From: Oehlia diaphana
Taxonomy: Eukaryota; Glomeromycota; Glomeromycetes; Glomerales; Glomeraceae
DNA: 64,000 nucleotides
NCBI GenBank assembly: GCA_003833135.1
Contig: QZLH01000101.1
Coordinates: 83,420 to 147,419 of the forward strand
Direction: 5' to 3'
In this document: positions 1,591-55,839 of the stretch, piece after piece
Numbering within the stretch: the stretch's first letter is position 1
Layout of the letters: each line of letters starts with the position of its first letter
Translations under genes and position numbers: made by a program
The notes under the pieces: generated by a model
Seen by the model: only the letters and a program-made list of their open reading frames with translations
Told to the model about the DNA's origin: nothing
Databases searched by the model: none

Positions 1591-2640
1591 CTACGTCTTT
1601 CCATATTCTTCTACATGGCTAAAGTCATGCGTCTTTTTCACTGGATCAGATTTATCATGATATTTTTTAATTCGCAATTCTGGAAAATCGGTCTTAAGGG
1701 TGCGAATCACTCTTTGTATATCCTTTCTAAAATGGCAGATAAGTAATGCACTTTTCTGACTCTCAAAAAGCAATAAAGACATCTGTTTGGTCTAATCCCA
1801 AAGTTCGACTAATACTATTTCTTTATTAGGGGCTAAGCAGAATGTCTTACCTTTCTGGGGTCAGAAAGTGTTGTGAATAATAAAGAATAGTTTATCCTTA
1901 CAAAAGCTTTAATCCATTCAATATTAAGATCAGTGAGATCATTATCTATGATAATAATGCGTCTTACATCTTGAACTAATTTATATAACTTTTCTATCGA
2001 TTGTCCAACCTTACTTATCCATTGCTTTGCTTTTGGCAGCCAAATTACTCTACACCTGAGCAATTATAGATACTATTTCATCAAGCCATAAATCGTATTA
2101 GCTCAAATGACATTTATATTTTTTATTATATTTACAATTATTAGTAATACGATGTAAGCTCTCTATCTGACAAACTACTCTCTTATAATCAGGTGGATTT
2201 ATATTACCATCAATATTGCAATATGACTTAAAATTAAGTCTCGTAGTAACAGCGTTCAAATAAAAATGACACGTGGATAATACTAGCAAATTTACATCAT
2301 TAGGAATAGACAAATTTTCAAGAATATATATTTTTTCCGTTTCTCAAGATGACCTTATATAAATGTCGCCTTCATTGGGTATATATCTCTCCTCATATAT
2401 TTCTGTTGCTGTAAGAAGCTCATTATATTTGATCCAAGATGGGATTTTTACAAAGGCTTTAAGAAAACCTGGGTCTTTTACCTTGCAAGATATGGATGAT
2501 AAATTTTTATTTTCTTACTGGATTTTTTCTACGATAAATGGGTTACATTCAAAAACTTTTTTAGGTTCATCATTATTTTACTGGAAATATTTTACAATAA
2601 ATGTTCCACTGGTAACATATACACAGCCGAACCACTACTG
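1591..2640 (-). pseudogene. Broken helicase-like ORF (origin-binding-protein type)
   Basis: Read from 2640 down to 1591, protein-like sequence continues across at least three frames with stops between them. Blocks visible: FLKAFVKIPSWIKYNELLTA and YEERYIPNEGD (about 2500-2365); NDVNLLVLSTCHFYLNAVTT (2310-2240); WLDEIVSIIAQ, a DE-containing Walker B-like box (about 2090-2050); VRRIIIIDNDLTDLNIEWIK (about 1960-1915); SALLICHFRKDIQ and FPELRIKKYHDKSDPV (1760-1640). The order resembles the large herpes origin-binding-protein-like helicase ORFs that recur in Glomeromycotina genomes; this is recognition from memory, not a search. Stops and frameshifts make it non-functional. It lies downstream of primase-like fragments on the same strand, so both may derive from one element. 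It could instead be another transposon-encoded helicase. Confidence 0.5.
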
Positions 2641-2919
2641 ATCCTTAGCATGTATATATTTACATAGTGGATACTCTAGTGGGGCTTTCTGATTAAAATA
2701 TACACAGTTTTCTGAGTCCTTTTCTTCAATAGTCCAATCCCTAAAATAGTTAGAATGCTTTTGCAAAGCTAGATCCACGCAATTTTTGTAATACACCTTG
2801 ATTCACGATTATTCTTAGTGGATTGTTATTTTTTTCTGTGCTAAGTAATCAGAGTCTTACTTCAAACCTTAAGCTAGTAGGTGGGTAGTTGAACTCTAAT
2901 ATGATTGAGGCCATTTTAC

Positions 2920-3035
2920 CCATTATCTAGTGAGAATTGAAGAATGCGCTTCACATAACCTTTTTTTGCTGAACTGATAAGACAGAGGTTAAAATTCTGA
3001 CCAGGTAATTCTCAATCAATATACCGTATATAGCG
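2920..3035 (-). pseudogene. Primase-like fragment, downstream half
   Basis: Minus-strand frame with YIDxELPGQNFNL followed by SSAKKGYVKRILQFSLDNG; x is an internal TGA. The sequence stops looking coding just upstream, near 3035, where a block of repeat DNA begins. The matching upstream part appears at 4545-4850 on the same strand, so an ORF was probably split by inserted DNA. It resembles the primase region of the origin-binding-protein-like ORFs mentioned for 1591-2640. The family call is from memory and moderate. Confidence 0.4.
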
Positions 3036-3079
3036 GACCACAGTATCCCAGGTATCTTGTAAAATCAGGAGTTTGACCC

Positions 3080-3320
3080 TGTACTTTCGGGTACTAAACA
3101 AAGCCTAAAAATTCCGGCTTTTGCAAATATTTCACGATCTACCAGTCCAATTTGAACAATCTTTTTTTATTTTGAAGAGCTCAATGAAAGCTATCAAACA
3201 AAAAAAGATGGCTCATATCTGATCACTGGATCACAAGATAATTGTAAAATATCCCCTGGGGTACTATACAATTTTATGAAATTTTTCAAGGGAGGTACTA
3301 TACATAGGGGGGTACTATAG
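3080..3320. mobile_element. MITE-like hairpin element
   Basis: Core of inverted arms: GATCTACCAGTCCAATTTG at 3135 onward pairs imperfectly with the reverse complement of CTGATCACTGGATCACAAG near 3219-3238, separated by two oppositely placed poly-T/poly-A runs. The same core, diverged, is in the 29516-29786 element. GGTACTATA is repeated at about 3258, 3295 and 3311, but I cannot fix exact ends or a target duplication. Confidence 0.45.
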
Positions 3321-3619
3321 CCCGTAATATATAGTACTTACCAAATTTCTCCTTGATTAAGGTACAAACTTTAACAAAAAGAATGGCGGTCAGTTTTTTT
3401 GATATCACAAATACAATTTATAGTAAAATGTGAAATATTTTTTATTTTCTGAAAGAGAAGCAGAAAATACATATATTTCATAATTTAACCAATATTTGAT
3501 ATGATCATTTTCTGTATCAATAAATGCTTCAATTTAGTATTGTGTACTATTTACACTCTTAATAGCGTTCTTGTATTATATTATTTTAATATTCTTTACT
3601 AAAAATGGTCAATTTTTTG

Positions 3620-3925
3620 AAATGATTTTGTAATAATTTTAACATACTACAAAAATACATTTAATACATCAAAATGGTTTTGTTATACTTTTGTTATTAT
3701 TTTGTAATTATATTGTATCTAGATTTATAAAAATAACTCAAAATAATATCACAATAATTTTTTAATGTATTTGCTATTATTTTATTATTACAATATAATT
3801 AACTTTGATATTATTTTAATATATTAATCTTAAAAATACTTTAAAAATATATTGATATATTTTAAAAATTTTACAAAATAATTGCACAATTGTTTTGAAA
3901 GCCATTGTATCTAGGTCTATAAAAA
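3620..3925 (+). repeat. Dispersed AT-rich repeat, copy A
   Basis: Contains ATTGTATCTAGATTTATAAA near 3711 and CATTGTATCTAGGTCTATAA near 3904. Nearly the whole stretch reappears in inverse orientation at 62385-62650, sharing TTACAAAATAATTGCACAA and TAATACATT blocks. It falls inside the region separating the two primase-like fragments. Confidence 0.65.
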
Positions 3926-4544
3926 TATTTCAAAAAATTGGCTATTTTTAGTAAAGTTCTTCGCTATTCAGAGGTCAAATTGAGACAAAATTACTACCAT
4001 TGAATTCCTCTTGAATTTGTGATTCGAATGGTGGTCTTAAAATTCCTGTGTGGTATCTGTATAATGTGATAGTTCAAGTATAATAGTGAGTATGATGAAT
4101 TATTATGTTACATAAAGATAATCATTTTCCAAAAGTAATATAAAAGCTCAATAATATAATAATAGACCATTATTTAAATCTCATAATTAAAAGGAATCTC
4201 ATAATTGTAATTTTATTTCAATACAAGCTTTGGTTGATGAGAAAATGAAATTTAAACTTTTTATTGCAAACTTTCATATTAAATTCAATTTTAATGTAAA
4301 AATTATCAGTAGTATTCCTCTGTGATAATGTAATATAACAAAATGTAATTATAATATTAGACAGTTAAAAGTAAGTAGTTTTTTTTTAAAAAAAAAATTG
4401 GAATTTATTATTATATAAGATTTTGTGCATTTTAAAAAAATTCATAGCAAATTATTATTCTTTGATTTCTATTAAATTTATAACTTCTTTATTTTTTAGA
4501 AGGTAAAATAGGTGTAAAAATAATAATAAAATTTTCAATTTTTT

Positions 4545-4850
4545 TTATTGCTTTTTAAAATAGTATTCTAAAAATCCATTGGGCATTACAAGTTTTAATT
4601 TAAATAGGAAAATTCTGATTTCATATCCAAAATAACAAATGATATTTGCACCGCTATTCTTTTCATCAGGAACTGTATATATTAATTTTGTGAATGCTTT
4701 AAGTTTATTATGATCAATAAGTAGAACTGGTGCATATAAAATATGATAACTACATTTACAAGAATCTGAAGACGTAGCAATTACTAATTCTTTAAGAATA
4801 TCTTTCCAACTGCAGTCACAAATTCGATACAAGGCTCTTATAAAAGAGTA
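4545..4850 (-). pseudogene. Primase-like (AEP, SxH motif) fragment
   Basis: An open minus-strand segment reads LYRICDCSWKDILKEL, then CKCSYHILYAPVLLIDHNKL and KAFTKLIYTVPDEK, then a less convincing tail to a stop at 4545-4547. CSYHILYAP with the following LLIDH resembles the SxH and neighbouring hD motifs of archaeo-eukaryotic primases, as in herpes/pox-type primases. The 5' part, including the DxD motif, is not visible, and the expected continuation is found at 2920-3035 rather than here. I read it as the upstream half of a disrupted primase-helicase ORF. A short unrelated ORF cannot be excluded. Confidence 0.4.
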
Positions 4851-6195
4851 ACAGATTTGAATAAATACTTTCTGTCCCTTAACACTACAATTTATGATTA
4901 GGGTTAAATTTTAGTTAGACTTCATTTTCCCAGATTTTTTCATATAGCAAAAAAAACTTTAAAATATATTTAGTTGCCTTTCTATTAAAAACTTTTGGTT
5001 AGAATATGAATAGCTTAAATCATTAAATGAATCTCTTCTAGAGTATTATAAAAATAGTATGCTACAATGGATTGCTGAATTATGGCATCAGCATTATAAA
5101 CATTTCATATCTTTTATGTCTTTGGCACTTATAAAGGTAATTTGATATAGTATAAAATCATAATATCTTAGAAAGGATTTATATGCGATAATAAAGCTTA
5201 GGAATATATGATCTTAATTTTATTTGCAATACTTAGCCATTCATGATCAGAACGGCTACCTGTTCTTAGTAATAATGAGAAAAATGCCTAATAAAAGTCT
5301 TAAAATATATAGAATCTTTAATAAAACTAATTTTTTTGCAAAAATTTTTAATAGCTTTATTAAATTTTAAGTAAAGATTTAAGTATTCTTTATTTTATTA
5401 AATTTATAAAGAATCCTATATATTTATAAAAAGTTGCAGTTTTAGATAGCCAAAATAAATACAAAAGATATAAAACTAAACAAATAATATAAATAAAATA
5501 AATAAAAATTTTATTTAGCTGTTTAAGTATATTTATGATTGCTCTGGCATACATTATGGTGATTTTGACCAGAATTATAATTACTTTAGCCAGAATTAAA
5601 TTTAAAAATGGTTGTTTAATTTTGAAATGATATAGTATTTAAATTGCTAAAAATGAAATTTTATTTTTTAAAAAATTAAAATTCATTTAATAGTTATATA
5701 TAAAAGTTTATATGTATAAAGGTTATTCAATAGTTTATTTTATTAGAATACATAATAAGATATTGTGTACTACTTTTAATACTATAAAATATTATTATGT
5801 AATTATTATAGTATATAATATAATTAAGAATAATAATGTATTAGGTAATAAATAAATTATTATTGGCTATTACTATTTTTTTATTAAACAATTTAATTTA
5901 ATATTTAAATTTAGTTAAATAAAATCCAAATTTTTTAGTAAAAATTTAATTACAAAGAAAATCTAATGATTTTTGATTTAATTTCTTTAATTTATTGATC
6001 AAATAACTTAAAATGACATTTAATAATATAAAATGATAATCTGTTTACGGTGGTTAAAAAAACTTGGATAGCCAGAACAATATTATTACTATATGATGGA
6101 TGGGAAGTTGGGAACCTAAATGTTAGACTTAATGTACCATTAAAAGTGGTTTATTGATTTCTTTATACGTAAAAAAAGCAAATGATTACGTAGGT
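4850..6195. other. AT-rich intergenic DNA with one inverted repeat
   Basis: No convincing gene. A plus-strand stretch at about 5022-5125 can be read as EYYKNSMLQWIAELWHQHYK, protein-like but isolated. The only structured part is the inverted repeat at 5303-5432. Confidence 0.5.
5303..5432. repeat. Inverted-repeat element, about 130 bp
   Basis: The left arm AATATATAGAATCTTTAATA and the reverse complement of the right arm AATATATAGGATTCTTTATA match with few differences. MITE-like size, ends approximate, no target duplication recognised. Confidence 0.4.
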
Positions 6196-10494: not shown

Positions 10495-10794
10495 NNNNNN
10501 NNNNNNNNNNNNNNNNNNNNNNNNNNNNNNNNNNNNNNNNNNNNNNNNNNNNNNNNNNNNNNNNNNNNNNNNNNNNNNNNNNNNNNNNNNNNNNNNNNNN
10601 NNNNNNNNNNNNNNNNNNNNNNNNNNNNNNNNNNNNNNNNNNNNNNNNNNNNNNNNNNNNNNNNNNNNNNNNNNNNNNNNNNNNNNNNNNNNNNNNNNNN
10701 NNNNNNNNNNNNNNNNNNNNNNNNNNNNNNNNNNNNNNNNNNNNNNNNNNNNNNNNNNNNNNNNNNNNNNNNNNNNNNNNNNNNNNNNNNNNNN
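10495..10794. other. Assembly gap (300 N)
   Basis: Unsequenced bases. The predicted open frame across it is meaningless. Confidence 1.
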
Positions 10795-23670: not shown

Positions 23671-23984
23671 AAATATGTCACATGATGTACTATATATAAA
23701 GTAAATTTATTAATCGGATTTTTTCAACTTAGCCAATTTTGATCGGTTAAACTTAAAATTTTATTGCGAAGATATTTTAAAAAATTTTTTTGTTGACATA
23801 TTTACAAAATAATCTTATTTAATGAAATTTTATTAAAATTTAAGTTCCACATTTTCGATTTTAAAGAAAAAATCACTGTAATTATCTTTAATGAAGTGAT
23901 ACAAATAAAAATAATAACAATAAATAAAAAAGATAAGTAAATTACAATGATCAAGGAGAAAGATGCTAATAAAAAAAATGAAAC

Positions 23985-24440
23985 AACAATGGAGTAATGG
24001 AAAGTAATAGAAGAAGAAAGGAAGTAAAAAAGAGTAATGAGAAGTGATAGGAAACAAAAAGGAGAAATAGGACATGATGGATGATGAAAAAGAGTGATGG
24101 GAGACGAAAAGAAGTGATGAGGAGTGTGGGAGATGAAGAGGAGTGATGGGAGACGAAGAGAAGTGATGGGAGACGAAAAGAAAGTGATGGTAGATGAAAA
24201 GGAGTAATGGGAGATGAAAGAAGTGATGGGAGATGAAGAGGAGTGATTAGAGACAAAAAGGAGTGATGGGAAACAAAAAGAAGTGATGAGAGACAAAAAA
24301 GAAGCGATGAAAGACAAAAAAGAAATAATGGGAAGTAAACAGGAGAGAAAAAGAAATAATGAAAAATGAAAAGATGTGATAGAAAATAATGTAAGACAAA
24401 TAATAAGAAGTAATATGAGGTGAAAAATAATAAGAGACAA
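23985..24440 (+). repeat. Purine-strand minisatellite, about 21-bp unit
   Basis: About twenty degenerate copies of AGTGATGGGAGACGAAAAGA and variants (GATGAAGAGG, GACAAAAAGG). The plus strand is almost all purine apart from the T of GATG. The long open minus-strand frames here (Ser/Phe/Leu-rich) are products of the repeat, not genes. The array is most regular at 24095-24300 and fades on both sides. Confidence 0.85.
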
Positions 24441-24489
24441 AAAATAAAAAAATGATCATTATAAGAGATTAGGCAATGATAGGAAACCA

Positions 24490-26610
24490 AGTAAAAAAAA
24501 TAAAAAGCATAAAGTAAAAAAAAATAAAGTTAATAAAAAACGAAATATAAAATTAAGTATCTCTAAAATAAAATAATCATTATTAAAATACTTAAAAATA
24601 TCTATTAAAATATAAAATCAAATGTAAAATACAATATAAAAAATATAGATTAAGCTAGAAATGATATATGTAAAAAGTTAGTTAATATTATACCAATTTG
24701 TATAATGATATTATTAAAATTAATGGAAATTGTATAAAATGGTAAATTGTTTGTTTATTAAAATTTTTGTATATTTAAATTGTTTTTAGAATCTTTATTA
24801 TACAATTAAAAAAATTTTAATAATAATTAAAAGAAATGCATTGTATGTTTAACTAAGATTAATAAATATTTTTTAAGTATTTATAAAATAAAATAGTCAT
24901 AAAATAAATTGCTTGGAGTATAAAAAATTTTATATTAAATATAAATTTGTTTAGTAATATTAAAAATAATTGCTTATTAATTTAGTAAATTTTGAAATTT
25001 TTATTTGATTTATTTATATATATATTTTTAAGATTTAATCTGAATAATCAAATATTTTGAATTAACTTTAGCAATTTTACTAATTTTAGAAAATAAAAAT
25101 TTTCTAAAATAGTTTTATTAAATTTAATTATTTATACTTGCTTTACTAATTAAATTTTCAAAAAAATGTAAAAAAAAAATGTAAAATATTTATATAAAAA
25201 TTATAAACATTTTTAAAAAATATAATAATTTTAATATAATTTAGATTGATTTTATTTATTAAATATTATTTTAAGAAAATAAATACTAATATTAATGCAA
25301 TTTTAAGTATTTTTTTTTTCAGCCAATTTTAAAATAACTTGTTTAAATTTCTTCAAAATTTTATACTAAATTTTACTATAATTTTATTATAATTTTGGCA
25401 AAATTTTAGTTAATTTAATATTTATAATAAATTCATTTTTTTTTAGAGTTTTACTAATTTTTTAATAAAACTATTTTAGCATTTTGTTAACTTGCTAAAA
25501 CTCTTGAGTTTTTTTAGTAATTTTAGTTAATTTTTATATATTTATTTAAAATTATGAATTTTTATTAACTATTTGTTATTTATATAATAAATTAAAAATT
25601 CAAAATATTATAGTTAAATACAGATCATATTAAACAAAAAATTATTTATATTATAATTTAATAAATATTAAAAATACTATTAGATACCTTTTAATAATAA
25701 AATAAACTCAATTATATAAATAAATTTTATTAAATTTAAATTATTAATTTGCTAAAAAATAGAAATATATAATTTAAAATTTTAATTTTATATAATTAAA
25801 TAAACTTTATAACTTATATATAGATTATTTAAAATTCTATTTAAATTTAAAAAATAAAAGTAATAAAGCAATTTATTTTCTTTTTATAATTTTTAAGATA
25901 AATTTATAATTTATTTATTTTTACTTATTTAAAATTAAAACTAAAATCTTTAATATATAAAAAAATAAATATTTTATAAATTAAATATAATTAAAACAAT
26001 TTTTTAAAAAATTTATATTTTGTACCAATTACTTTTATAAAAAAAAATCCTATAAAAACTTTACTTTGAATATTTTAAAATATTAAATATATTTATTTAT
26101 AAATATAATATATTTTTCTTTAAATATTTTATAATTAAATTAATCTAATTTACCTATAAATTTTATTAATTAATTAGTAATATTTTTTGAAATAATATAT
26201 TAAATTATAATAAATTTTATAGCTTTTATAAGTAAAAAAATTCTTATTAATTAATAATTTTTTTAAAAGAATAAAAATTATAATTAGAAAAAATATATAC
26301 TATAGGATTACATATTATCATTTGATCTTATGATTTATTATATTTATATAATTATTACATTGATTTATAAACTTTTCCTGCAAAATTTTTTTTTAACTCT
26401 TTTCTTTCTTTTAAATTATAATGAAACCTTCTTTTGAAAGTTTTAATAATATAATCATATCTGAAACATATTTGTTTAACAATATATCAAATTATTAATC
26501 AATTACAATGAGTTTACCATTAAATAATATATAATCACCTTTTAATTAAGTGGCTTTTTTATATGAGTATCCTACTTTTATTACTAATAAAGATTAATTC
26601 ATTTTTTATA
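24490..26610. other. Extreme AT desert
   Basis: Long stretches are nearly devoid of G and C. No frame of any length, no recognisable motif. It lies immediately upstream of a decayed transposase and is probably decayed transposon DNA. Confidence 0.6.
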
Positions 26611-30929: not shown

Positions 30930-32635
30930 TCTTTTCAGTTCCATTTTACTATTTCGTGAATGAAAATGGTCATGGAATTCTAAAGCATTATTGTCTTTCC
31001 GACCAAAATTAATATAATAGACAAAGCTTACCATCAAGAATTTCCCCATCCCAATTTCTAAGGCTATTTTCCAAAATTTTTTATCTAAAACAAAGCTCTC
31101 TGTTTTGTTTTACGTTTGACAGGAGAGAGAATCTCTTTAACATGATCTTGACGTGAAGGTAATACACATTCAAACCCCTTTTTCCCTAAATCTCCAGCAT
31201 TGATTTGATATTTCAGAAAGAATTTTTTACAAACCCAAAATACGTTCATTCTCGGCTACTAATGTTGCCCTCTTCAAAAAGGAAACGTTAGTAAAGGACT
31301 TGCTAACGTTCCATAACCCCAATCCCACCTTCCGTCCAGAATTCCAAGGCCGGAATCCGCGTCAGAAGGTCATTTTCCAGTTCATGTTTGCATTTCCTCA
31401 AAAACGTGCTCATGAACAATTTCACGCAACACTTTAAAATATTTAATAAAATTTAGCATAAATTATTACAACTAGACGTTAGAGATTCATTATACCAAAT
31501 TATACTTACATATAATACGTGGAAGGACGACCGAACACCGAACAATAAATACGATTTTCTACCCAAATTTTATTAAAAATTTGTTTATAGCTTCAACTTT
31601 TTAATGGTATTTAACGTGCCACATTTAACAAAAAAAATTAGAATTCTTTTTGGCAAGCATCCACGCCATATTAGTTTTGAGTTGCACGAAATTCCTTGTG
31701 ACTCCATAATGAACATTATAAAGAAAAGACGCAACTTTCGCAATAATATTTACATAATCCTTCATATCTAAAAGTGATACCAAAAATCTGTGTACCGAAT
31801 GATATGAATCATATGATTATTGTCGCACTCCTTGTAACACCGAAAAATCCGCAACAATTTTCTATCTGCACTTTAACAACGTATTCGTTTTACATGTGAA
31901 GTTGTTATTAAAAACTAGAGTGTACAGGATTGTGTATAATCAAAGCGCCTAATCTTAAAAAAAAAACATTCCATAAATGATTGAGAAATCTTTTCTCGAT
32001 CTTAAACAATTTTTAATTAATAGTTCGGAATCAAAAAACTATAGAGATAACTTACTGTTGTGCAGCATTCTCGCTTGTTGAATAAATTCATACTATAATC
32101 CGATAGTCTTTATTTTTAATAATAAAAGACCCGATAAAATGACAACTCGGATCTTTTTTGCAAGAGAAACGTTGATCATATCATCATAAAGCTAAAAACG
32201 TAATAGTTGAATACCGATTTCGTAGATAAAATAAAAGCTTGGCGTTTTTGACAAACGATTTATCGATTATTACTTCAACCTCAATATTACTAAAAAAAGT
32301 AATAACAGATAATTATGAATTATCGGGAAATCTAAGAATTCCGCAAATCTGCATGAAATCAAAACCTGTTAATTATATATTATCAGTTATTGGATGAGTA
32401 AACTAAATAATAGTCTCACTAGAACTTATATAGTTTAAATCATCCAATAATAATATTATCGTTCATGCATAATTTTATTATATTTTTAATATTATATTAA
32501 CTCCTCGATTGTTATTCCGCGGATCAAATGACAAAAAGCAAATTTGATTTATTATATATATATTACTGATTGATTATAAATAACTCCTATTTTTTCATAA
32601 CTTTGTTTTTTTAAAAAAAATAAAAATCTTTTGAT
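30930..32635. other. Intergenic DNA, exchanger upstream region
   Basis: Near 31090-31210 the minus strand can be read as DLGKKGFECVLPSRQDHVKE and ILSPVKRKTKQRAL, protein-like but isolated and followed by stops. 31250-31430 is less AT-rich without a frame. The last 200 bases before 32636 hold poly-A/T and TTATATATATA near 32552, likely promoter sequence. I see no complete gene. Confidence 0.45.
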
Positions 32636-34161
32636 ATGGCAGAGAGACAACCACTGGCCTTAAACTATTCAGATTATGGTTCATTACCAAATGAGGGAGC
32701 ATACAATTTAAATAATGCATCAACTCCTGCGGTTTTAAATGATTCGCCACCCACACCAAAAATACGCAATTCTCTTAAAATTATACTTACTTGTTCATGG
32801 ATAAATTGTTTATTAATATTTATACCATTTGGATATTTAGCTCATATATTTAAATGGAGCGATACTTGGATTTTCACTTTAAATTTTTTAGCTATACTTC
32901 CATTATCCAAATTATACGATTTTGCAACGGTGGATGTTAGTTTAAGAGTTGGTCAATCAATTGGTTGTTTGTTAAATGCTACATTTGGTAATGCAGTAGA
33001 ATTAATCGTTTCAATAATAGCATTATCAAAAGGAGAGATACGCGTTGTTCAAACATCATTACTTGGTGCAATTATTTCAAATTTATTATTAATATTAGGA
33101 ATGAGTTTTGTTGTAGGAGGTTTTATTTATCACCAACAAGTATTTAATCAGATTATCGCACAAACTTCTTCTGGTTTAATGACTTTAGCGTGTATTAGTT
33201 TAATAATCCCTGCTGCTTTTAATTTTGCTGTCAACGATAATACTTTTAATGATAATGGAGGAAATTCTAGACAACTTGTAGACTTGTCTCATGGAACAGC
33301 AATAGTTTTATTAATAATTTATATTCTTTATATTTTTTTTCAAGTAATTATCCCAATCTTTCGGTGCAGTGTATTTATTATGTGAAATTTAACTCCTTAT
33401 TTTTGATTTATTAGTTGAAAACCCATTCGAATTTATATCAAATAGAAGAAGAAGAAGAACAACCTCAATTATCTCTTAGTACTGTATTAGCTTTATTCGT
33501 TATTGTGACTTTTATTGCAGCTTTATCTGCCGAATATTTAGTTGATTCAATTAAAGGAATGGCTGAATCTTCTGGATTAAGTAAAACCTTTATCGGTTTG
33601 ATTTTATTGCCTATCATTGGTAACGCTGCTGAGGTATATCGCGATTTTATCGAGACTCGAAAATTTTTCTTAAAAAACATTAATATGTGATTCTATCTTA
33701 TCTAGTTTACAACCGCTATTAATGCTTCAGCAAGGAATAAAATGAGCTTTGCTATCACTATTGCTGCTGGTAGCTCTATGGTAAGTGATCTAACAATTAT
33801 GCAATGTATATTTTTACTGTGCCAACATTTTTTTTTTTTTTCAATTTTTCTTTAGCAAATCGCACTTTTTCTTACGCCATTCCTTGTTATACTCGGATGG
33901 ATAATAGGACAAGATTTAACTTTGTATTTTCAGCCGTTTGAAACTGCAGTATTATTCATTTCAGTTATTATTACAAATTATCTTATTCTGGTATTTAATT
34001 TACGCATTCTTTTTTTTGTTTAAACGGTTCTATTTAATTAAAATTCTTAGTAATGGTTTTTTTTTTAGGATGGTAAATCAAATTGGTTTGAAGGTGCGAT
34101 GTTGCTAGCTACATATACCATTATATCTTTAGCTTTCTTCTTATATCCAATGAAATTGTAA
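32636..34161 (+). CDS. VCX1: Vacuolar-type Ca2+/H+ exchanger (409 aa)
   Basis: Five exons: 32636-33343, 33415-33633, 33706-33780, 33856-33990, 34069-34161; 1230 coding bases, every intron in phase 0. The length matches fungal Vcx1/CAX proteins. It has a hydrophilic N terminus (about 45 residues) and about eleven hydrophobic helices in two halves. The two CaCA alpha repeats are clear: [18 protein letters not shown] (residues 118-135) and [18 protein letters not shown] starting at 305, ending in [13 protein letters not shown]. The halves are separated by an acidic loop with EEEEEQPQ (about 247). The protein should exchange cytosolic Ca2+ for vacuolar H+, lowering cytosolic Ca2+ after signalling. 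In the second repeat Phe follows GNAAE where His is usual (GNAAEH); this residue falls at the exon 2/3 join, so it depends on the acceptor at 33705. Aminopeptidase gene follows on the same strand after 540 bp. Confidence 0.9.
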
Positions 34162-43081: not shown

Positions 43082-46000
43082 TTATCGAATAAAAAGAATG
43101 CTGTAACTAAGGACAACTAAACTAACCCAAATCAGAAATTTCCTTAAATTATTATATCTTTCGGTCCATACCGATCCTTCCTTTCTTTTCACAAACCAAT
43201 CAAACCTTTTCCCAATATATCCCCATTCGTTTCTTTCGATCATTCCCATCAATCTACCGAATTCACTCATTGTACGAATAAGTGAAGATTCGACCATGGC
43301 TAAGATATAACGATAGCCACCAACTGTGGATGTATGCTTGTAAGGTTGTTCAGTTAAGTGTAAATACATATCAGCAATAATGCTTGAGACAATTACAAGT
43401 GGAATGGATAGAAATGTCAAAATTGTAAAGGTATTAATAATTGGTGTGTTATAAAATACAGCAAAGAATAAAGAAATTATCATAGAAACAAGAAAGAGTA
43501 ATATTGTTCCAAATAACAATTCTATGCTGTTTGGTACAATGTCATTGTACGTTAATTCTGGATACATTTTAACCAAGGCACCATCTCCTGTCGCCCATTT
43601 ATAAAATCTCCAGTAATCTCTATTGCCATTATTCCACCAAGGATGAGTTGCCATAACATTTGGTGCTGCTTGAAATCCTTTTCCATTTTTTGCGTTTTTA
43701 ATAAAAAAATTTCTTTGTTTCAAACAAAAATCAATGTCTTCTCCTCCACCAGTCTTAGGAAATATTGGATCATAAAGTATGTTCTCATTAAATCGTCTAA
43801 TGAGTAAATTGGCAGTTACTCCCCAAGGTACATCGTCATCCCAGATTTCTGAAATTCCCCAAAAAAATGTGAGTCCTGATAAAGCCAATGCACTTGTATA
43901 AATGCTTCCATCTGCTGGTGGGAATTTTGTGTTCCCAATAAACCCACATGCATTAGGATGCTTTTTGATAATTTTTTCACATTCAAACAGGATATTTTTT
44001 TCCGGAACTACATCATCATCAAAAAATAGAACATAATCAGCACTGGATTCGCGTAATCCACGATTTCGTGACAAACTTGCTCCCAAGTTTGTTTTGTTTA
44101 CTCGAATTCTAATGAATGGATCTTTTTCATATAATTTTTTTAAAGTAATAATATTTGATGAATTCGGATCATCTACTATTATAATGGTCGTTGTAGACAT
44201 TGTAACAGGTTTTTTTAGGTTAATCATTGGATCAAGATATTTTAAATTAACTCTATAACTTGGTACAATAACATCAAGTGTGAGCAATTTTGGTATAGGA
44301 TTTTTACAATTTTTTTTCAACCATTCTTCAACTCTATTAACTGAGTTATTTAAGATATCAAAGTTCCAATTTGGATGATGGGTCCTTTCATATCTTGGAT
44401 CTAAACTTCCACCTACAACATTTTGAATTTCAACATCTTTTAACATCATCGAACATCCCCATCGTCTATAAGTTTGAAACAGGTAGGGATCTCCATCTTG
44501 GTTTTTAAATGTTTTTCGTGGCAGAACATCTCCATTAAATATATCCAAATGTACACGACCAATTACGGGAAACGTTGGAAAACCATGAAATGATGTATCA
44601 GTAAAAGTGACACATCCGAAACCACGCGGAACTTTTTTTTGAATTGAAATTTTACGATAAGCTTCATGGAATTTATTCATCCATCCATTAGTTTCGATAA
44701 TTACGTCATCACCGAATAAAACAAAATAATCACAATTATCGTCATATGCCTTACGAGCCAATTCTATCCAGATTTCACATATAGAACCGGGAGGAAAATC
44801 GAATTCCATTGTATGAATATCCGTAAATCCATGTTCATTAAGTATTCTTTCTGCGGGATTATTTTTTATCGGATGAAAAAGAGAATCATCATTATCTATT
44901 CCGACATAAATTTTAATTTGGTATCTTGTTTCACCAAATCTATCTTGAATATCTTCTTGGGAAGTCTCATAAAGACTTTTTGCAAAGTTTGAAAGATTTT
45001 CGAGGCAATCCTCAGGTTTAGTTAGCCCTCGAGAAGTTATTGGTAAAAGAACACCAAAGGTTATAGTTTCATTGTTATAATTTAATACGTCTACTTTACT
45101 TTCAAGATAGGTCCTTACTAATTCGTTCCATGAATCATCTTTATATTGATGACGTTGTTTCTCGAGTTCTTGTTGGATCCACAAAGACGTTTTTTTCATA
45201 CCTTCACGAGTAGTATGTTTTGGATACCAACCAAGATATTTGCTGACCAACGTATTATCAGAATTTCTATTATTTACACCAGTAGGTTTACTTTCATCAA
45301 ATTTCAAAGTTACTTCATCACGGGTAACGCCAACCGTTTCAAACGCGACATAAGCTAGTTCATCAATTCTAATTGATTCATCTGAACCAATATTTAATGT
45401 TAAATCAAGATTACTTTCCATAAATTTAATAATAGCATCAACACAATCTGCTATATACAAAAAACTACGTCTTTGTTTTCCGTTACCCCAAATTTCAATT
45501 ACATTTTCTTTTGTATATTTACTAGCACAAATAGCTTTTCTTAATAAAGCGGCCGGAGCTTTTTCTCTTCCATCATACCATGTACCACCTTCTCCATAAA
45601 CATTATGAAATCTTGCAATTTTGAATTGAGGGAATTTTGAAGTAGTTTTATTTTCTGATGAAGTGGAGAGTTCTTTTAAACTTGATATAAATATTTCAGT
45701 ATTCAATTTTTCTGCACCATAGGATTCTTGCGGTTTCGTATCTTTACTATTACAATTCCAAGTACTATCATCTTCTTTTAATTTTATATCCTCATTTAAA
45801 TTAATTTGTTTATTATAAGGATATACACAAGCAGATGATGCATAAAAGAATTTTTCAATATTAGATTGCATTGAAACTTGAAGAATATTTAAAGACATTA
45901 TATGATTTTCTTGATATATAACGAAATTATTTTTTGAATTAATAACACCGACACCTCCCATATTTGCTGCAAAATGAAATACCCATTTTACATCATTTTT

Positions 46001-46313
46001 ATTAAATAATTTACGACAAGTTTCAATAGAACGAATATCTCCTTCAATAAATTCTGAACAGAATTCAGAAGTATCTTTATAAAGACGAAATGTTGGATCA
46101 TCATGTAAGTCGATTACGCGTACGTAATGTCCTTGATCATGTAAACGTTTTGCTACATGACTTCCCTATAAATGATTAAATTTTCAAATATAAAAAAAAT
46201 ATAAAAAATGTATAGATTAAATTGATTTATTTATATTAAAGAAAGTGAGTAATATAACATACTATAAAGCCATTTCCACCAGTTATTAAAACAACGCGTT
46301 TTTCAGAAACCAT
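43082..46313 (-). CDS. GDP-mannose 3,5-epimerase-like / double glycosyltransferase fusion (1044 aa)
   Basis: Two exons, 46313-46263 and 46165-43082, with one 97-bp intron (donor GTATGT, acceptor TTTATAG) cutting the NAD-binding loop: TGGNGFI/GSHVAKRL. Residues 1-350 are an extended SDR closely resembling plant GDP-mannose 3,5-epimerase: FHFAANMGGVGVINS, FFYASSACVYP (Cys130), YGAEK (Tyr166, Lys170), RFHNVYG, DGREKAPAALLRKA (Lys219), NRNSDNTL. All four known catalytic positions of that enzyme are present. Residues about 383-630 look like a GT-A-type glycosyltransferase (FGVLLPITSRG, GIDNDDSLF, YFVLFGDDVII). Residues about 645-870 are a GT2-type domain (VIVPSY, FFDDDVVP, GGGEDIDFC, HPWWNNGNRDYW). 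Hydrophobic helices lie at about 900-921, 926-948 and 1025-1042. It may make GDP-L-galactose or GDP-L-gulose and pass it to the attached transferases at a membrane; that coupling is inference. Substrate and product are unknown. Confidence 0.88.
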
Positions 46314-55507: not shown

Positions 55508-55839
55508 NNNNNNNNNNNNNNNNNNNNNNNNNNNNNNNNNNNNNNNNNNNNNNNNNNNNNNNNNNNNNNNNNNNNNNNNNNNNNNNNNNNNNNNNNNNNN
55601 NNNNNNNNNNNNNNNNNNNNNNNNNNNNNNNNNNNNNNNNNNNNNNNNNNNNNNNNNNNNNNNNNNNNNNNNNNNNNNNNNNNNNNNNNNNNNNNNNNNN
55701 NNNNNNNNNNNNNNNNNNNNNNNNNNNNNNNNNNNNNNNNNNNNNNNNNNNNNNNNNNNNNNNNNNNNNNNNNNNNNNNNNNNNNNNNNNNNNNNNNNNN
55801 NNNNNNNNNNNNNNNNNNNNNNNNNNNNNNNNNNNNNNN
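55508..55839. other. Assembly gap (332 N)
   Basis: Unsequenced bases within the repeated 3' flank of methyltransferase copy 2. Confidence 1.

Follow-up and report, generated by a model that had tools for sequence, protein, structure and literature searches.

A GDP-mannose 3,5-epimerase-type domain joined to two predicted transferase domains and membrane helices in Oehlia diaphana and many other fungi

GDP-mannose 3,5-epimerase (GME) has so far been studied mainly in plants. In a 64,000-nucleotide stretch of the genome of the fungus Oehlia diaphana (contig QZLH01000101.1, positions 83,420 to 147,419; the window hereafter), a preliminary description made from the letters of the DNA placed a GME-like domain, two glycosyltransferase-like domains and terminal membrane helices on a single protein, which raises the question of what a fungus might do with such a fusion. 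We found that the fused gene is real, and for the most part the interpretation given to it is supported. Of more interest than the observation in one genome is that distant fungi share the fusion, and that in them GME appears joined to an older module that includes a GT-A domain of no described sequence family.

The fused gene and its parts

The gene lies on the minus strand, with its ATG at 46313 and its stop codon ending at 43082, and encodes 1044 residues in two exons, in agreement with the single-intron gene of the preliminary description, which had given no strand. The exon junction is predicted from consensus splice sites, from relatives and from a gap-free alignment to a protein of Rhizophagus irregularis (P0001, 1074 aa), which matches residues 1-1030 at 97.3% (28 substitutions, zero gaps) and diverges at the C-terminal end past residue 1030; the R. 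clarus protein P0002 is 84% identical to the window protein. Matches to individual parts were far beyond chance, with E values of 6e-32 for Pfam Epimerase, 1.6e-13 for Glycos_transf_2 and 3.4e-62 for plant GME in the PDB. Since residues 18-1044 all lie within exon 2, the fusion does not depend on splicing. It also recurs in independent genomes: the GME, middle, GT2 and membrane parts were found in this order in 120 of 121 sequences, a count that shows recurrence and not frequency among fungi, because the set consists of the window protein and the 120 best of 447 proteins found by a full-length search at E≤1e-5, picked for resembling the full-length query in sequence and length. The splicing artefact that the preliminary description had already dismissed was thereby ruled out.

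The epimerase domain was compared with GME first by overall similarity and then residue by residue. In a PDB sequence search, five plant GME sequences scored E values of 3.4e-62 to 1.8e-60, about 150 bits ahead of the next protein (5.5e-17), and the identity to Arabidopsis GME is 42.3% over 291 aligned positions. The main text of a 2022 review (PMC8787198) names S143, Y174, K178, C145, K217, R306, R243 and N203 as GME residues, and all eight window equivalents (S128, Y166, K170, C130, K219, R317, R250 and N205) are identical to those of Arabidopsis. They make up the Ser/Tyr/Lys triad of C4 oxidation and reduction (S128, Y166, K170), the Cys/Lys acid-base pair (C130, K219), the Cys-acidifying Arg (R317), the diphosphate Arg (R250) and N205, and each is kept in 113 to 120 of the 119 to 121 sequences of the set that have a letter there. 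The likeness to the plant enzymes (Arabidopsis 2c59; 8sg0) thus lies in these catalytic and substrate-binding residues and in 42% identity, whereas the plant chains in the PDB (379 and 409 residues) consist of the epimerase alone and the window GME stands at the N-terminus of a membrane-bound fusion with two transferases. Judged by residue pattern and PDB match, which agree with each other and with the identity first proposed, the epimerase domain is of the GME type. The residues C130, Y166/K170 and K219, as well as the GDD, DDD and GGGED motifs singled out in the preliminary description, all stand where it had placed them (Table 1).

The middle domain had no credible sequence match in Pfam, NCBIfam or the PDB. 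A Pfam scan of seven of its members touched three families, each with one member only, at a best E of 0.16 and with none over its cut-off; one of these matches scored 11.5 bits where 27.1 was required. The AlphaFold2 model of the domain, at a predicted local distance difference test score (pLDDT) of 91.6, has a GT-A fold, and both Foldseek and VIA-align matched it to GT-A enzymes, which bears out the GT-A-like domain proposed for this segment. As modelled, the middle domain is a GT-A transferase fold outside any described sequence family that we found. Its highest VIA-align Z score (16.3 over 176 residues at 2.5 Å) was with WrtF, tied with transferases that use other donors. WrtF is a GDP-L-fucose-dependent fucosyltransferase with a like fold and 8-9% identity, and GDP-L-fucose is GDP-6-deoxy-L-galactose (PMC8787198, main text).

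For the second transferase domain, the proposed GT2 assignment held, with PF00535 at 51.4 bits (cut-off 23.3). Residues 640-1044 were modelled at a pLDDT of 93.6; Foldseek placed hyaluronan synthases (Chlorella virus, Xenopus) closest to the GT2 part, and VIA-align ranked TarP (19.8) and TarS (19.7) first, with 19.1 for K4CP and 18.4, over 312 residues, for a hyaluronan synthase. Hyaluronan synthases share with the fusion the GT2 catalytic domain and the membrane helices, but they have one transferase domain and no epimerase. Processive GT2 synthases of the hyaluronan, cellulose and chitin type carry a QxxRW motif, which was not seen in the window protein; the equivalent stretch is RFYKW (residues 870-874), with R870 and W874 each kept in 120 of the 121 sequences. 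Chondroitin polymerase K4CP and heparosan synthase 2 are bacterial enzymes that have two GT-A domains per chain and no epimerase and that alternate two sugars. Both gave structural matches to the middle as well as to the last domain, at about 9-19% identity, and on the models this likeness is one of common fold, function apart.

The terminal membrane helices of the preliminary description correspond to three hydrophobic segments by hydropathy (Table 1), with a modelled helix at residues 967-994 between the last two. Over residues 1-890 of the window protein, hydropathy stayed below the threshold throughout, which makes a cytosolic position of the catalytic domains more likely.

Table 1. Features of the fused gene (positions in the window)
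Feature	Positions	Strand	Remarks
Exon 1, residues 1-17	46263..46313	-	start of NAD-binding glycine motif GGNGFIG; gap-free alignment to P0001
Intron, 97 nt, GTATGT...TAG (GT...AG)	46166..46262	-	
Exon 2, residues 18-1044 and stop, 1027 open codons	43082..46165	-	
GME-type domain, exon 2 part, residues 18-345	45182..46165	-	
Predicted catalytic Cys130 (Arabidopsis C145)	45827..45829	-	kept in 118/120 sequences with a letter there
Tyr166...Lys170 (Arabidopsis Y174/K178)	45707..45721	-	120/120 each
Predicted catalytic Lys219 (Arabidopsis K217)	45560..45562	-	kept in 117/121
Arg317 (Arabidopsis R306, acidifier of Cys)	45266..45268	-	kept in 117/119
Middle domain, residues ~380-640, modelled GT-A fold	44297..45079	-	
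GDD motif, residues 502-504, DxD-like	44705..44713	-	D503 in 117/121, D504 in 121/121
NQDGDP motif, residues 572-577	44486..44503	-	near-invariant
GT2 domain, residues ~641-880, PF00535	43577..44296	-	
DDD motif, residues 733-735	44012..44020	-	near-invariant
GGGED motif, residues 823-827	43736..43750	-	near-invariant
C-terminal membrane region, residues 881-1044	43082..43576	-	hydrophobic 900-918, 930-948, 1026-1044

Distribution of the fusion and of its transferase module

Among the matches listed, the fusion is present in the Glomeromycotina genera Rhizophagus, Funneliformis, Glomus, Acaulospora, Dentiscutata and Gigaspora, in many Agaricomycetes and in Neolecta irregularis (Taphrinomycotina). 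Schizophyllum commune, a laboratory basidiomycete, also bears it (P0079). The median gap from the GME match to the middle-domain match is 38 residues. This layout is not confined to the source fungus, and it reaches beyond the Glomeromycotina and Mucoromycota to which the preliminary description had pointed. A middle-domain fragment 58% identical to the window protein (P0130) was also seen in the assembly of the liverwort Calypogeia fissa, perhaps a contaminant from a mycorrhizal fungus.

A viral origin was considered, since metagenomic fusions in a single open reading frame resembled giant-virus genes; a quick tree nested them among named Agaricomycetes, and the idea was rejected. The viral scans were restricted by pattern and listing. 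The first gave no match, the second gave at least 80 loci that matched mainly via the epimerase part (at one of them, L004, a separate GT2-like open reading frame lies about 3 kb from the epimerase match), and of the 103 pattern matches in the third none was confirmed as related to the middle domain. The 160 viral and prokaryote loci retrieved contain 8205 open reading frames of at least 80 aa. The middle-domain profile picked up none of these at E≤1e-3, against 28 for the GT2 profile and 237 for the GME profile.

Relatives of the middle domain that have no GME were found outside the fungi. A search among shorter proteins returned 57, including many fragments of fungal fusions; a further search with apparently non-fungal members, in which 7998 best candidates were scored, returned 140, and GME is present in 9 of the 107 proteins newly listed. 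Since the best 120 were listed here, as they were in the full-length search, further lineages may exist. The GME-less proteins, many of 600-700 residues, consist of the middle and GT2 parts and usually the membrane part, and come from Klebsormidium nitens (P0221, 39% identical to the window protein), Tribonema minus (P0256), the brown algae Discosporangium (P0247) and Pylaiella, and the diatoms Mayamaea, Thalassiosira exigua (P0275) and Cylindrotheca, some of these sources being represented by partial gene models. The algal proteins thus have both transferase domains of the fusion and lack its GME. In 61 GME-less sequences, at least 2 of them fungal, a GDD-type motif is kept in 59, NQxxDP in 56, DDD in 61 and the ED motif in 55. 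A Met start close to the middle domain, as expected of real N-termini, was seen in 45 of the 61 in the tree; some entries are probably truncated gene models, such as P0220, which begins near the end of GME.

Two proteins, P0230 and P0146, join the module to a sulfotransferase-like region and have no GME; P0230 exceeds one Pfam cut-off, P0146 falls just under, and P0184, P0185 and P0284 have weak sulfotransferase-like matches under the cut-off. These relatives hint at sulfated glycans in some protists. A protein with the middle, GT2 and membrane parts (P0218) comes from a 4.4-kb contig of a Verrucomicrobiota metagenome-assembled genome, either as a bacterial member or as a misbinned eukaryote.

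To place GME on this family, a quick tree was built from the 186 of 285 sequences that have enough of both transferase domains, the rest being dropped. All 125 GME-bearing sequences fell into one group of 131 (FastTree support 97), and the presence of GME changes 6 times on the tree versus about 52 times in shuffles. The GME-less members of this group are P0220, P0239, P0227, P0011, P0229 and P0223, at least some of them truncated or decayed. A further tree was sampled from 26 fungal, 2 plant and 79 prokaryote sequences together with 25 of the 80 viral ones, and was rooted arbitrarily; all trees used quick methods on biased samples. As the module occurs in algae without GME, the epimerase was apparently added by fungi to an older eukaryotic enzyme, and the simplest reading of the 186-sequence tree is a single gain in fungi, which is tentative because of its long branches.

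In the source genome (108.8 Mb, 1672 contigs) one intact copy of the fusion was found. A second copy on contig C151 (L169, C151:83500-90500, at about 2209-4907) is decayed, with the epimerase catalytic block lost and with stops and frame shifts. Its R. irregularis counterpart, P0011 (731 aa), has no GME and has END in place of GDD, and is the sole sequence of the 121 without the four ordered parts. Exon-level searches that scored the best candidates (16 of 28) found no second GME. A GDP-mannose 4,6-dehydratase exon (contig C126, PDB E=4e-55) and a GDP-L-fucose synthase exon (contig C263, E=2.7e-18) lie apart from the fusion gene, so the GDP-fucose route appears distinct from the fusion protein. 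Contigs C347, C1534 and C841 carry sequences that by eye resemble UDP-xylose synthase, UDP-glucose epimerase and a 4,6-dehydratase. Elsewhere in the window there are F-box protein fragments (PF00646/PF12937; 8686-9153 and 19042-19524, minus strand), a sodium/calcium exchanger family fragment (PF01699, E=1.4e-15; 32624-33385, plus strand), a segment at 24001-26000 with a G+C fraction of 0.158 and a GC skew of 0.45 beside overlapping repetitive open reading frames (23802-24529), and runs of N, marking either a gap or withheld sequence, at 10495-10794 and 55508-55839.

A proposed function and its alternatives

We consider it reasonably probable that the protein is a membrane-bound fusion that makes its own rare GDP-sugar donor and then uses it for an L-galactose-containing glycan or glycolipid. 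The N-terminal GME domain would convert cytosolic GDP-mannose to GDP-L-galactose, possibly also to GDP-L-gulose, and the GT-A and GT2 domains beside it, anchored at the membrane by the C-terminal helices, would consume GDP-L-galactose. One or both transferases would add L-galactose to a growing glycan or glycolipid at the cytosolic membrane face, with GDP-L-galactose as donor either alone or together with a second nucleotide sugar; by analogy with the two GT-A domains per chain of K4CP and heparosan synthase, a two-sugar repeat is possible. Beyond the GME-type active site, we infer all of this, i.e., the catalysis, the product, its use by the transferases, the handover from domain to domain, the cytosolic site and the acceptor.

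Several observations weigh against this proposal. A key residue is absent from a few fusions (C130 in 2 of 120, K219 in 4 of 121). The best structural matches of the middle domain tie across enzymes with different donors, so fold similarity assigns no donor. A hydrophobic, membrane-like window precedes the end of GT2 in 43 of the 121 sequences (one follows GT2 in 120), which makes the topology less tidy in relatives. The same two-transferase module occurs without GME in algae, and its older donor may thus not have been GDP-L-galactose; in this fungus GDP-L-fucose is probably also made, as the separate exons suggest, and would be an alternative donor. A literature search that covered few subscription papers turned up no fungal glycan in which L-galactose was reported, and a Penicillium polysaccharide of determined configuration, in the available part of its description, has D-galactose, the fusion not having been searched for in Penicillium.

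The algal module and the encoded GDP-L-fucose enzymes also fit a different account, in which most of the product of an active GME leaves the protein and serves elsewhere in the cell, in making an ascorbate-like analogue or as donor for another transferase. The attached transferases would then draw on other donors, among them GDP-mannose, GDP-L-fucose and UDP-sugars, and the point of the fusion would be where the enzyme sits or how it is regulated. Fungi do make ascorbate analogues (PMC4396506, in its available part), and the transferases need not use GDP-L-galactose. For such a role a separate GME would suffice, yet the fusion and its order are kept in all but one of the compared sequences with a short gap between the domains, and the genome searches, which scored the best candidates, gave no second GME. 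We regard this account as unlikely, without dismissing it.

A product other than GDP-L-galactose was also weighed. According to the main text of PMC8787198, GMEs yield GDP-L-gulose as a side product, and a transferase could draw off either product, so that GDP-L-gulose or a mixture might be what is used, giving a glycan with L-gulose. The same text gives GDP-L-galactose as the main product, and the match to the Arabidopsis enzyme at every one of the eight residues makes this improbable.

Still harder to sustain is a fusion with a GDP-L-fucose synthase-like or UDP-sugar epimerase in place of GME. Among the 25 of 27 matching NCBIfam models shown, the best was GDP-L-fucose synthase (NF047922) and none was a GME model; its 105 bits, however, are far under the cut-off of 500, and plant GME leads in the PDB. 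GDP-fucose synthase (GMER) has His and Lys where GME has K217 and R306 (PMC8787198, main text), and the window protein has the GME pair, Lys219 and Arg317. With a separate synthase exon in the genome as well, the fucose synthase identity was rejected, and we give this class of fusion very little weight. Least probable of all is that the fusion has degenerated or lost its function in this lineage: although the second copy is decayed, the window copy is fully open, keeps every examined motif and is 97% identical to the R. irregularis and 84% to the R. clarus protein.

Significance for fungal glycans

In its main text, a survey of nucleotide sugars in 491 fungal genomes (PMC8092308) names Ara, Fuc, Gal, GalA and Galf among its sugars; L-galactose is not one of them, and neither "GME" nor "L-galactose" occurs there. 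Two fungal sequences close to plant GME were reported in 2011, with no fusion named in the available part of that paper (PMC3220709), and the main text of the GME review (PMC8787198) has no word starting with "fungi" or "fungal". Nor did our literature search, with few subscription papers covered, find a published description of a fungal GME-transferase fusion. Thelephora ganbajun is among the listed fusion bearers (P0045), and its polysaccharide is described, in the available part of the report, as 31-50 mol% galactose with the D/L form not given, which illustrates how L-galactose could be missed.

An overlooked class of fungal glycan is a possibility that we hold tentatively, at slightly under an even chance. 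Mushrooms and arbuscular mycorrhizal fungi would make a wall polymer or glycolipid with L-galactose (or L-gulose), GME would hand the donor directly to an undescribed GT-A family, and the sugar would be counted as ordinary galactose in routine analyses. The fusion occurs in root symbionts and mushrooms alike, and this breadth points to a glycan, so far unsought, that many fungi may make.

Nucleotide-sugar surveys define the sugars available for fungal walls, and if the fusion is active, the sugar list of such surveys is incomplete for many mushrooms and mycorrhizal symbionts. Coupling GME to transferases for the production of L-galactosides is proposed in PMC8787198 (main text), and the fusion, if the proposed function is true, would be a natural example of it. 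The algal and fungal two-transferase family, with its undescribed first domain, would then gain a donor, and a fungal surface could bear a sugar familiar to plants as part of their own walls.
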